A DNA stretch of 64,000 bases, from the NCBI RefSeq assembly GCF_019879105.1, contig NZ_CP082248.1:186001-250000 (forward strand). Reading direction: 5' to 3'. Each line of letters opens with the position of its first letter. Position 1 is the first letter of the stretch. Below the pieces are notes generated by a model. It ran no database searches, was not told the DNA's origin, and was given only the letters and a program-made list of their open reading frames with translations. Source of the stretch: Natrinema sp. SYSU A 869 (GTDB taxonomy: Archaea > Halobacteriota > Halobacteria > Halobacteriales > Natrialbaceae). This document shows, one piece after another, positions 17,471-42,504 of the stretch. Both the position numbers and the translations under genes were made by a program.

Positions 17471-18034
17471 TCGCAATACCACGGCCGTCAGGCCGTGGAT
17501 ACGCACCGTCACTCAGAGCAACAGACACCCATTCAGATGCCTGTTCCGAGTTTTCCACGCTGAAGTTTAAGTGACAGGCCGCTGTACAGAGAAGGGAGGA
17601 ATCGGTCGGGACGGAGCGGATTCCGAACCGTCCTTCGGAGGTCGTTCGAGAATCGAAGATTCTCGTGATGACAAGAGACCTTTGGTCTCTCGAACCACGG
17701 CCTGTCCGCCTATACAACGAGACAGTATCCGAAAGAGCAAGCGGTGAACGCCACATTCCAGAAGAGTGTGCCGACGTACCGACTGCTCAAAGCGAACCAG
17801 CAGATACCCCCAAGTCTGCCGACGCCTGCCCGAGTCCTCGTGGCAAAAACAACACGTGGACTCCGCACATGGGTGAGGATAGGGGAACGGCGGTTTGGCA
17901 CTGCCAGCAGTCCATCACACCGATGCTGTGGGACTACCCGTGCCCGAAAGGTGTGGTCGTCCGGTGATTGGACTGCGAACCTGACACTCCCACCGCTCGG
18001 GATTCCTCCGCGTTTACGCGGAGGAGGATGTCAA
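17471..18034 (+). mobile_element. non-autonomous IS200/IS605 (IS1341)-type element, subfamily 2, 564 bp
   Basis: The left end has the hairpin CCACGGCC-GTCA-GGCCGTGG (17479-17498) and the right end has CCTCCGCG-TTTA-CGCGGAGG (18005-18024) followed by AGGATGTCAA, the usual right end of haloarchaeal tnpB elements and the 3' part of the omega RNA. No transposase or tnpB remains between them. The right 330 bp match the element at 42107-42440 and the left hairpin matches that at 47703-47722. Confidence 0.7.
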
Positions 18035-22525: not shown

Positions 22526-22735
22526 TTGATTGATCGTCATAGCCTTTGGCGCCGGCGAGAACCTCTATTTCCGCCGTATTTCGCAGTGCCACCCGACAGC
22601 CCGCATGGGTATCGTTCGGCCAGTGTGCCGAACAGTGGACGTCCAGCACGGCACACGAGGCCGTATCGACCAGGGCTGTCACTTTCAGCGTCCGTCTGTG
22701 GCGATCCGGTCGTGAGATATAAGTAGGCTGTCAGA
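22526..22735 (-). pseudogene. IS5-type transposase fragment
   Basis: The frame contains TLKVTALVDTASCAVLDVHC and RNTAEIEVLAGAKGYDDQS, the D-containing core and the conserved GDKGYDD-like segment of IS5-superfamily transposases. Similarity stops near 22526, and the following frame to about 22290 is of uncertain origin. It abuts the 3' end of the orc1 gene. Confidence 0.55.
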
Positions 22736-23969
22736 TCAAGCCGTTTTCGCGAGCGTTCTCCTGCAGCGAGTCTAGATCGAGTTCGTCACTCATATGCAAG
22801 TTCTCGAGCGTCGACAGCGCAGCGTCTAGGGGAACATCGACTTCGTACTCGTAGTAGATACCACCAGCTCGACCCTCGTTTTGTTTCGTCCGATTGAGGA
22901 CCCCGAGCATCGAGAGTTCAGCAAGGTGGTTGTGGAACGCCCTCCCGCCAAGTGGATCACGCTCAGTGGCTTCGGCGAGATCTTGGTACTGATCGTACAG
23001 CGTCTGTTTTTGCAGTGGGACACTGTCAGGTTCGGCAACCGACGACGCAACAACCGCTAACAGAGTCAGATGCCCGTGTGAGGTCAGATCTTTCATCGAC
23101 TCCTCAATACGCTGTTTCTCGAGGAGTTGTTTCGCGTCGCGAACGTGTTCTTCGGTCACAGTGGCGTCATTCTGCCGACGTGTGAGATCCCCGGCCTCAA
23201 GCAAGAGATCCAGTGCCTGTCGTGCGCTACCCTTATCCTGTGCGGCAAAGGCCGCACACAGCGGGACGACATCCCCATTGAGGACGCCCTCTTCGAATGC
23301 GCGACCAGCCCGTTTTTCGAGGATATTCTGGAGGTCGTTGGCGTCGTAGGGTGGAAAATGGAGTTCACGCTCACAGAGCGTATCTTCGACTCGCGGGTCT
23401 AACTTCTCGCGAAATTTGAAGTCGTTGCTGATCCCAACGATTCCGACGCGAGAATTCTGGATCTTGTCGTTACTCCGAGCGCGTGGGAGTTGGTAGAGAA
23501 TCGAGTCGTCGTCACCGATGTAGTCGACCTCATCGAGAACGATTAAGACCGTGCCACCAATCGAATCGAGTTTTTCCCAGAGCATTTCGTAGACCGCGTT
23601 CAGCGGATATCCAGTTCGGCTGATTTTCTCAGTCGGATCGCGAAGCGTATTCACCAGGGAAACGGCGACACGATAGCTACTGGTCAAATCCTCGCAATTG
23701 AGATAGACGGTCGTAATCCTGACGTCGTCGTATTGTTTGGCGTCTTCCTCGAGATGGTGGAGGAGATACTTTGTCGTGGCTGTTTTTCCGACACCGGTTT
23801 TCCCATAAAGAAAGATGTTTCGAGGCTGTGCACCGTTGATGACCGGTTGGAGATAACCTGTGTATTGCTCGAGTTCGTCGCCCCGCTCATCGAGGGATTG
23901 AGGCTGATAGTCGTCATGGAGGACGTTCTCGTCCTCAAAGATTTCCTCACTCCGCTCGAAAAGTGCCAT
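22731..23969 (-). CDS. Orc1/Cdc6 replication initiator
   Basis: A 412-residue AAA+ initiator. Walker A is YGKTGVGKTATTKYL near residue 55, Walker B is GTVLIVLDEVDYIGDDD near 140, and sensor 1 lies in RVGIVGISNDFKF. The C-terminal third (LTLLAVVASSVAE, RDPLGGRAFHNHLAELSMLG) is the winged-helix domain that contacts ORB DNA. It is full length and intact. Its 5' side is the repeat-rich region 23970-24475, so it probably encodes the initiator for that origin. Confidence 0.93.
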   Translation of the reverse strand: MALFERSEEIFEDENVLHDDYQPQSLDERGDELEQYTGYLQPVINGAQPRNIFLYGKTGVGKTATTKYLLHHLEEDAKQYDDVRITTVYLNCEDLTSSYRVAVSLVNTLRDPTEKISRTGYPLNAVYEMLWEKLDSIGGTVLIVLDEVDYIGDDDSILYQLPRARSNDKIQNSRVGIVGISNDFKFREKLDPRVEDTLCERELHFPPYDANDLQNILEKRAGRAFEEGVLNGDVVPLCAAFAAQDKGSARQALDLLLEAGDLTRRQNDATVTEEHVRDAKQLLEKQRIEESMKDLTSHGHLTLLAVVASSVAEPDSVPLQKQTLYDQYQDLAEATERDPLGGRAFHNHLAELSMLGVLNRTKQNEGRAGGIYYEYEVDVPLDAALSTLENLHMSDELDLDSLQENARENGLI

Positions 23970-34733: not shown

Positions 34734-34965
34734 GGCACTGTCTAGATGCGAAAAATCGCAAGACTCGAAGACGGTGACGTTGCGATGTCGACTGTAAAAC
34801 CACCATGGATAATCTGATACAACAAGACTCTGTTCTACAAACGGCAGAAATTTGGCTACCTCAGCACATATTTCACGAGGTGAAACAATCACTGGGGTCA
34901 GCACTGAAGCCATAACAGCCGCTAAGACACCGTTCTATGCCAGAATTTCGAAACTAGACAGTGCC
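34734..34965. mobile_element. MITE, copy A (232 bp)
   Basis: Terminal inverted repeats GGCACTGTCTAGAT and the reverse ACTAGACAGTGCC at the ends. The interior is similar to copies at 37503-37733 and 41143-41373 but more divergent. No gene inside. No clear target duplication is seen at this copy. Confidence 0.75.
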
Positions 34966-37502: not shown

Positions 37503-37733
37503 GGCACTGTCTAGATAAGAGAAACCGCAATACAGGGAGGTGATGAAGTGACGATATCGATTGTAAAACTACCATCTTGGATCTGATATAGGCGGACTCT
37601 GTTCTACGAGCAGCGATAATTCGGCTGCTTCAGCAAACTTCCATAACCAGTGACAATTTCAGATCTCACAGGTAATGATGTAACAGGCTCTAAAACGCTC
37701 CTATACGCCGGAATCGAGTGACTAGACAGTGCC
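37503..37733. mobile_element. MITE, copy B (231 bp)
   Basis: Ends are GGCACTGTCTAGAT and ACTAGACAGTGCC. The interior is over 85 percent identical by eye to copy C at 41143-41373. It lies at the 3' end of the gene at 37722-37964 and supplies that gene's last codons and stop (GGC ACT GTC TAG). Confidence 0.8.
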
Positions 37734-40294: not shown

Positions 40295-40474
40295 ATGGAG
40301 TTACAACAGAATTTCGACCGTCTCAAGCTGTTTGTCGACGACGGTGAGACGCCGATCGATGGATACCCGCCCAGACAGGAAGTTGGTGTAAAGCCGGGAG
40401 ACGGTCTTTATCGCTCATATTTAGCGGGTGCGAACGATTCTGGTACTTCTCAAGACACCCCTCGTTTTCAGTGA
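40295..40474 (+). CDS. possible small protein ending in an ORB-like box
   Basis: From ATG 40295 the frame reads MELQQNFDRLKLFVDDGETP and GVKPGDGLYRSYLAG, which is protein-like, but the last ten residues are encoded by the ORB-like repeat starting at 40455. It may be a truncated gene. No family recognised. Confidence 0.25.
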   Translation: MELQQNFDRLKLFVDDGETPIDGYPPRQEVGVKPGDGLYRSYLAGANDSGTSQDTPRFQ

Positions 40475-40555
40475 AAACGTATCGACGGACACCCCTGATT
40501 TTCAGTGAAAGAGTCGGCAGGAACACAGGGATACCCTCGTTTTCAGTGAAAGCGG
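40455..40555. repeat. three ORB-like boxes downstream of the split orc1/cdc6
   Basis: Three direct copies of CCCTCGTTTTCAGTGAAA-like sequence at 40455-40479, 40489-40513 and 40532-40555 (the middle one has CCCTGATTTTCAGTGAAA). The inverted form TTTCACTGAAAACGAGGGG occurs at 42476-42504. The core plus C-string is the usual shape of haloarchaeal ORBs. Confidence 0.65.
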
Positions 40556-40561
40556 GGAACG

Positions 40562-42080
40562 CTACACCGACGATTCCGAAAGCGCATTTAGAACATCATT
40601 TTGGGTTTCCGATGATTCGATACACGCGGCCAGGACCACGTCAGGATCATGCAGTAATCGATGGGTCCGATAACTGCCCTCTCCTTTCCCACCACCAGTG
40701 TGGCGGCTTTTCGTAATCTCTGGAAGCGTCCACTTTTTCATCAGATCCAGTATGCGCTGATGAGTAAGCGATTCACCAGACGCGATTTCAGCGACGATAC
40801 AATAGGTATCGTACAGTTCGCCGGTCGAGAATGAATCACTGAGCTTCGATTTGGTCAGATACGCGAGTGCATAGAGCGCATATCGGGAGTGCGGCGTTCC
40901 GTTTTTGATGACCTGTATTGAGCGATTCAGATCGCTATACTCGTCAGCCTGTCGAACGTGATCCTCAGTCACGCGATCGCTTTCGTCTTTCTCTGCGAGC
41001 TTGCCCGCTGAAGGATATCGAGTGCGCGTCGTGCGTCGCCGTAGTCGCGAGCTGCAAGCGCGGATGCGAGTTGGATAACGCCATCCTCGAGCACGCCATC
41101 TTTGAACGCGTCACTTCGACGCTCAAGGATTGCCTGCAACTGGGCACTGTCTAGATAAGAGAAACCGCAATACGGGAAGGTGATGATGTGACGGTATCGG
41201 CTGTAAAATCACCATATTGGATCTGATATAGGGGACTCTGTTCCACGAGGAGCGACAATTCGGCTGCTTCAGCAAATTTCTCATAAGCAGTGACAATCTC
41301 AGATTTCACCGGGAATGCTGTAGCAGGCTCTGAAACGCTGCTATACGTCGGAATCGAGTAACTAGACAGTGCCTGCAACTGATTTGCGTCGTAGGGTGGG
41401 AAGATGATTGGATCGTCCTGAAAACTCGAGGCAACGCGCTCATCGGAGGAACCGAAGTAATCAGTTTTGTTACTTATTGCGATAACTGAAATGTAACAGC
41501 CCGTCTTCCCCGCCTCTTCGGATCGCGAGAGTTTCGACAAGATCTCAGCCGTATCATCACCGAGTTTGTCGATCTCATCAAGAATCACGATCAGTGAATC
41601 GGTCTCATGGAGGAGACCATCTGAGTTCCAGAGTGCGTCGTAATATCGACTTGCACCGACGCCTTCCTTTGGGATGTAGCGGTCAGGCTCAATCGCATCG
41701 CGTACTTCAAAGGCCATCGTTCGGGCAGCTCGTGTCTCAGTGTTATACTGATCACAGTCGACGTAAGCAGCTGTTAGGTCGGTCCCCTGCATCTGTGCGA
41801 TGCCTCGAGCACGACCGGTGACGTGTTTCGCGACGAGTGACTTGCCGGTCCCCGTTTTCCCGAACAAGAAGCCACTCTCCGGTGGATCACCAAACGCTGC
41901 CGGTTTTAAGAGCGCTTCAACAGTCTCGATCTCTCGGTCGCGACTGACGATTCGATCTTTTTGTGGGACGTGTTGCGGTCGGAGGAGTTCACGACGACGA
42001 AAAATGGACGTAGCCTCATCTGCCATCGGGTCATCCTGAAGATCCTCGACTGAGGGAGTCGGGATTGGATCGTTACCCAT
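40562..42080 (-). pseudogene. Orc1/Cdc6 initiator split by a MITE
   Basis: The 5' part encodes the AAA+ domain: Walker A FLFGKTGTGKSLVAKHV, Walker B LIVILDEIDKLGDDT and sensor 1 YISVIAISNKTDYF. At FPPYDANQLQA the MITE 41143-41373 interrupts it, with an 8-bp target duplication TGCAACTG. The frame resumes with QLQAILERRSDAF and ARRALDILQRA; adding one A (minus strand) near 41001 then restores LAEKDESDRVTEDHVRQADE and the winged-helix end. The intact protein would be about 425 residues. As it stands the product would stop inside the MITE. Confidence 0.88.
41143..41373. mobile_element. MITE, copy C (231 bp), inside orc1/cdc6
   Basis: Terminal inverted repeats GGCACTGTCTAGAT and ACTAGACAGTGCC, flanked by the direct duplication TGCAACTG at 41135-41142 and 41374-41381. 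No gene inside. The perfect 8-bp duplication shows it moved as a unit, presumably driven by a transposase encoded elsewhere. Confidence 0.9.
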
Positions 42081-42106
42081 TAGCTAGGGTATTCTAGACT
42101 ACCACA

Positions 42107-42440
42107 TTGACATCCTCCTCCGCGTTCACGCGGAGGAATCCCGAGCGGTGGGAGTTTCAGGTCTGCAACCACGGATGCCGCCACTTCACGGGAGTCCGCG
42201 TCTCACCCAGCCATCGTGGTCGGTGGCTGACTGGCGGTGCCAAACCGCCGTTACTCCTATCCTCGGTGTCGTTGCCCCCCATCTGTTGTTTTTGCCATCA
42301 GGGAGTCGCTGACACGTCGCCAGACTTGGAGTTATCGTCGGGCTTGCTCAGGCCGGCGGGCACAAGGCGAACCCTTCGAGGATTCGCGTTCACCGCGTCG
42401 GCGTTTCGGATACTGCCTCGTTATCGTGTATACGTATCTC
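42107..42440 (-). mobile_element. IS200/IS605-type element, subfamily 2, right-end part
   Basis: Begins TTGACATCCTCCTCCGCG with the hairpin CCTCCGCG-TTCA-CGCGGAGG and matches the right 330 bp of 17471-18034 read in reverse. No left-end hairpin was found, so it looks truncated. It lies between the split orc1 gene and the ORB-like box at 42476. No transposase frame. Confidence 0.65.
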
Positions 42441-42475: not shown

Positions 42476-42504
42476 TCTTTCACTGAAAACGAGGGGTGTG
42501 TCTG
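42476..42504. repeat. ORB-like box upstream of the split orc1/cdc6
   Basis: TCTTTCACTGAAAACGAGGG plus a GTGTGTCTG string, inverted relative to the three boxes at 40455-40555. Together they suggest a second origin tied to the split initiator gene. Confidence 0.6.

Follow-up and report, generated by a model that had tools for sequence, protein, structure and literature searches.

What remains of a replication origin when its initiator gene has been interrupted by a mobile element? The question is raised by a broken orc1/cdc6 locus in Natrinema sp. SYSU A 869, lying in a 64,000-bp stretch of DNA (hereafter the window) that corresponds to bases 186001–250000 of the 881-kb replicon C2. The genome (G000) comprises 5.67 Mb in three replicons, and positions outside the window are given as replicon:base. 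A preliminary description of the window proposed that a MITE had split the initiator gene, that the origin-like boxes still present on either side marked a recently silenced origin, and that an intact orc1 elsewhere in the window might have taken over.

An initiator gene with two interruptions

As reference for the window gene and for the empty MITE site we used the intact alleles of three congeners (G012, G015 and G027), which include Natrinema versiforme (G027:C4, pNVE414, 413,865 bp) and Natrinema mahii (G012:C14, JHUT02000015, 79,556 bp). The orthologues are 427 aa long with 93–95% amino acid identity to the window gene, and the codon alignment is ungapped except for four bases missing from the latter. 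The extent first given for the split gene, which lies on the minus strand, proved exact, as did the 231-bp element within it and the perfect 8-bp duplication that flanks the element (Table 1). Three open stretches remain, with matches to Pfam AAA_16/AAA_22, Cdc6_lid and Cdc6_C.

Table 1 Features of the broken orc1/cdc6 locus and of the intact orc1 in the window
Feature	Position in window	Strand	Remarks
orc1/cdc6 pseudogene	40562..42080	-	start codon 42080, stop 40562; TIGR02928 in three pieces
309-aa open frame	41151..42080	-	AAA+ base domain (codons 1-236) plus MITE-encoded tail and stop
231-bp MITE	41143..41373	-	inverted ends GGCACTGTCTAG / CTAGACAGTGCC; after codon 236 of orc1
Target duplication, copy 1	41135..41142	.	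TGCAACTG; perfect 8 bp
Target duplication, copy 2	41374..41381	.	TGCAACTG; perfect 8 bp
Site of private 4-bp deletion	41008..41010	-	codon about 278, lid region; frameshift
Putative IS200/605-type palindrome-associated element (PATE-like)	42106..42428	+	323 bp, GC-rich, non-coding
Distal ORB	42478..42499	+	lone surviving core-origin box; position conserved in relatives
Downstream ORB 1	40454..40476	-	
Downstream ORB 2	40488..40510	-	
Downstream ORB 3	40529..40551	-	most degraded, 3 mismatches
Intact orc1/cdc6	22731..23969	-	412 aa; separate from broken locus

A MITE-free allele in relatives had been suggested as a check on the insertion, and it was found: alignments with the alleles of all three congeners run through the site without a gap, and these alleles carry TGCAACTG as a single copy or a one-base variant. 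Because these congeners have the same gene uninterrupted, the insertion can be regarded as proven. Past the MITE the frame does pick up at QLQAILERR, as had been noted, but it is lost again about 40 codons on. The recovery is brief because a separate deletion shifts the frame; its four bases are present in all three congener orthologues. A sequencing error could mimic this 4-bp deletion, but not the MITE or the loss of the origin core described below. The 309-aa open frame has neither lid nor winged helix, and nowhere in the locus does a single frame carry the AAA+, lid and winged-helix domains that mark a functional adjacent initiator.

dN/dS on the G000 branch is still low (0.047). The part 3′ of the MITE shows an excess (0.081 against 0.015 and 0.025) that is not significant, and an attempt to order the lesions by this contrast was dropped for that reason. 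The values would be compatible with continued constraint on the 5′ part of the gene.

The broken gene is one of many. About 20 full-length Orc1/Cdc6 genes and several fragments are present in the genome (TIGR02928 matches), including five further full-length genes on the 881-kb replicon. A solitary C-terminal piece of 194 aa at C2:117445-117963 (L057), on the same replicon, is apparently another relic.

A MITE family with the ends of IS6-type elements

The terminal motif of the inserted element occurs six times in the window at ≤1 mismatch (0.17 expected) and 81 times in the whole genome, against one match for the reversed control. For the MITE itself there are 35 matches in the genome, of which about 30 are full or near-full copies, most on the two megaplasmid-size replicons; the nearest copy, at C1:328275, is 99% identical. 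The family was absent from the genomes of all three congeners (G012, G015 and G027). Target duplications of eight out of eight bases flank the orc1 insertion and several other copies. Local 741-bp elements (L046-L051) have ends of 12–14 bp identical to those of the MITE, and one of them, L046, is bordered by a perfect 8-bp target duplication (GTTGACCG on both sides) and encodes a transposase matching Pfam DDE_Tnp_IS240 (E 3.8e-8), which is IS6-type.

The 231-bp element is thus short (members of about 230 bp), non-coding and multicopy, and has its ends and 8-bp duplication in common with an autonomous element. On these features it is a MITE, predicted to be mobilised by an IS6-family transposase. 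Two other readings were rejected. As a coding element it would rely on a 73-codon frame, which reads through into orc1, gave no match in a Pfam search, and in many related copies is interrupted by stops or frameshifts. As an internal-deletion derivative of the local IS6 elements it should match them beyond its ends, and the match is limited to the ends. The combination of identical 12–14 bp ends and 8-bp target duplications is that of IS6-family elements with dependent MITEs, and an interior unrelated to the autonomous elements has likewise been stated for MITEs in Haloquadratum (PMC3119063). A literature search for the terminal-repeat sequence and for MITEs in orc1 returned nothing relevant.

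Two older copies of the family, 89% and 67% identical and lacking target duplications, lie in the window at 37503-37733 and 34734-34965. Copy density is about 12–19 per Mb on C1 and C2 compared with 1 per Mb on the chromosome. Seven copies are found no more than 5 kb from an orc1 gene, where 2.6 would be expected (P 0.011, uncorrected); this closeness could reflect origin targeting or merely shared variable regions.

The missing origin core and the element in its place

The expected layout of the origin was taken from six intact loci in several genera (L111-L116). Upstream of orc1, these relatives carry one ORB at -141/-142 and frequently a second at -57. Beyond these comes an AT-rich unwinding stretch (DUE), whose conserved TTATTATATTATTT motif lies at -195 to -197 from the ATG, followed at -351 to -391 by a distal ORB in inverted orientation. 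The succession of DUE, proximal ORB and distal ORB is kept in all six, and across Natrinema, Natronolimnohabitans, Natronorubrum, Haloterrigena and a Halovenus MAG; the remaining two congeners align with the same arrangement. A downstream cluster of 2–4 ORBs is present in six of six relatives and in the window.

In the window, the origin-like boxes are real (four matches at ≤3 mismatches against 0.02 expected). However, there is little to support taking them for the origin, since three of the four make up the downstream cluster and the core is represented by a single one, the distal box at 42478. Between this box and the start of the gene, both the DUE and the gene-proximal boxes are missing, and no second copy of the lost core was found in the rest of the G000 genome.

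A 323-bp element now fills this interval, and close copies of it lie at two other places in the genome, L098 (C3:236291; about 98% identical over ungapped columns) and L099 (C1:379308). It contains a near-terminal palindrome, TCCTCCGCGT/ACGCGGAGGA, at 42116-42137, and its terminal 62 bp adjoins tnpB (OrfB_IS605/TNB proteins) in the congener loci L187, L189 and L194; a match to the Rfam family sot0042 ('sense overlapping transcript') is sub-threshold. The near-terminal palindrome, together with an end in common with tnpB elements, identifies it as a probable PATE-like IS200/605 derivative. Like PATEs and other IS200-IS605 (IS1341-type) derivatives (PMC3119063), it is non-coding, palindromic and widespread in the genus. 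It differs from them in sitting at a deletion and in lacking 56 bp of internal sequence that its two nearest copies have. In L098 and L099 this extra stretch contains a palindrome and resembles a small mobile repeat nested in the element. A diverged relative (72%) of the element lies in the window at 17716-18034.

The flanks of the insertion site have been altered by the deletion, leaving no clean empty site for comparison. Its boundaries are too blurred to fix exactly where the lost core began and ended, so that the insertion of the palindromic element and the loss of the core could be one event or two. The low branch dN/dS and the 98–99% identity of the nearest copies of both mobile elements indicate that inactivation is recent relative to species divergence.

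A probable dead origin and the alternatives to it

With two lesions in the initiator and one in the core, a dead origin best explains the locus, which is very probably the relic of a mobile, plasmid-type orc1/cdc6-adjacent origin that no longer works. The sequence itself shows that the initiator gene was hit twice independently, by the IS6-type MITE after codon 236 and by the 4-bp deletion near codon 278, and that the gene-proximal ORB or ORBs and the AT-rich unwinding element are missing, with the palindromic element now filling the interval. Lacking lid and winged-helix domains, the gene would yield no functional initiator; lacking an unwinding element and paired boxes, the site would have nothing to fire. 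The loss would have been tolerated, presumably through other orc1-origin modules on the replicon, and the leftover boxes would be passive remnants.

Part of the original proposal survives in this account: inactivation does appear recent, and the MITE is one cause of it, although hardly the decisive one given the frameshift and the core loss. It is very unlikely that the MITE alone silenced an otherwise sound origin whose role then passed to the orc1 at 22731-23969. In favour of this account, the MITE is real and recent, outer boxes remain, and the second gene was confirmed as intact, but it leaves the second frameshift and the lost core aside, and the genome has about 20 full-length Orc1s, of which the proposed successor is just one. 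The flanks of that gene showed no inverted boxes, whereas two other orc1 genes on the replicon have them: the one at C2:561745 has an 82% AT stretch bordered by inverted boxes, and the one at C2:520383 has five boxes, with clear inverted boxes among them. Both of these origins appear better formed, and nothing marks out the gene at 22731-23969 as the replacement. GC skew over the whole 881-kb replicon is shallow, with a minimum at 179 kb and no feature at the broken locus, and was set aside because its range is about that of a random walk of such length.

We consider it highly improbable that the 309-aa product is made and kept as an Orc1 devoid of lid and DNA-binding domain that modulates other Orc1 proteins, a reading compatible with the conserved 5′ part of the gene and the apparently, though not significantly, relaxed 3′ part.

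A dormant origin, repairable or fired in trans when another Orc1 acts on the leftover boxes under stress, as for oriC4 of Haloferax mediterranei, is barely credible. Four ORBs are left with little decay, and dormant origins do exist in haloarchaea (PMC4595724). However, the dormant oriC4-cdc6H of H. mediterranei required its own intact adjacent initiator (PMC4595724); at the window locus the initiator is broken and the DUE is gone. In addition, no other place in the genome has the box sequence of this locus, and the closest paralogue of its initiator is 52% identical over the AAA+ part. IS6 elements transpose replicatively, which would make precise excision unlikely, and excision of the MITE alone could not restore the origin because the private frameshift and the core loss would remain. 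The locus is thus best read as a recently dead origin rather than a switchable one.

We give next to no credence to the idea that the leftover ORBs serve solely to titrate a paralogous Orc1 or to act as its decoy: a downstream cluster of 11 ORBs (oriC2D) does restrain initiation at oriC2 of Haloarcula hispanica, likely by titration of Cdc6 (PMC3936714), and such a cluster is kept in all six intact relatives and the window, but the cognate initiator is gone and boxes of the same sequence accompany no other orc1 on the replicon.

The dead origin favoured here has clear parallels. In Haloarcula, the accessory origins oriC3-cdc6D, oriC4-cdc6G and oriC5-cdc6H have been disrupted in variable regions or minor replicons through coupled insertion and deletion: a transposase has inserted, sequence between origin and gene is missing, or Cdc6 has been deprived of its winged helix (Wu et al. 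2014, PMC4441112). One H. hispanica origin, with a Cdc6 short of the WH domain, is inactive, and so is an origin that has lost 203 bp between itself and the gene (PMC4441112). The window locus shows the same kind of decay, but with three lesions at one locus and with inserted elements that are non-coding (the MITE and the palindromic element). The layout of the intact relatives also recalls oriC2-cdc6E of H. hispanica (PMC3936714), with inverted ORBs around an AT-rich stretch and further ORBs downstream; the likeness is one of layout, with 2–4 downstream boxes instead of 11 and, in the window copy, no upstream core.

The same origin family has decayed independently elsewhere, for example in Natronosalvus amylolyticus. 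There, a frameshift near codon 285 and an in-frame stop interrupt the same initiator (L170, NZ_CP101159.1, 2501-3774), and the upstream ORBs and DUE are still present. In Halostagnicola sp. A56, orc1 occurs as partial pieces on three contigs (L117, L118 and L119; residues 1-297, 265-427 and 245-383), which suggests break-up with partial duplication.

Transposon-disrupted haloarchaeal origins have already been published, and the process seen here repeats that described by Wu et al. (2014) in a new, well-resolved case. The locus is an unusually complete record of a haloarchaeal replicon losing an accessory origin: the ancestral layout can be read from the congener alleles nearly to the base, and the inserted elements appear young. 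Its relatives also reveal what this origin family keeps fixed, namely the motif at -195 to -197, the ORB at -141/-142 and the downstream boxes.
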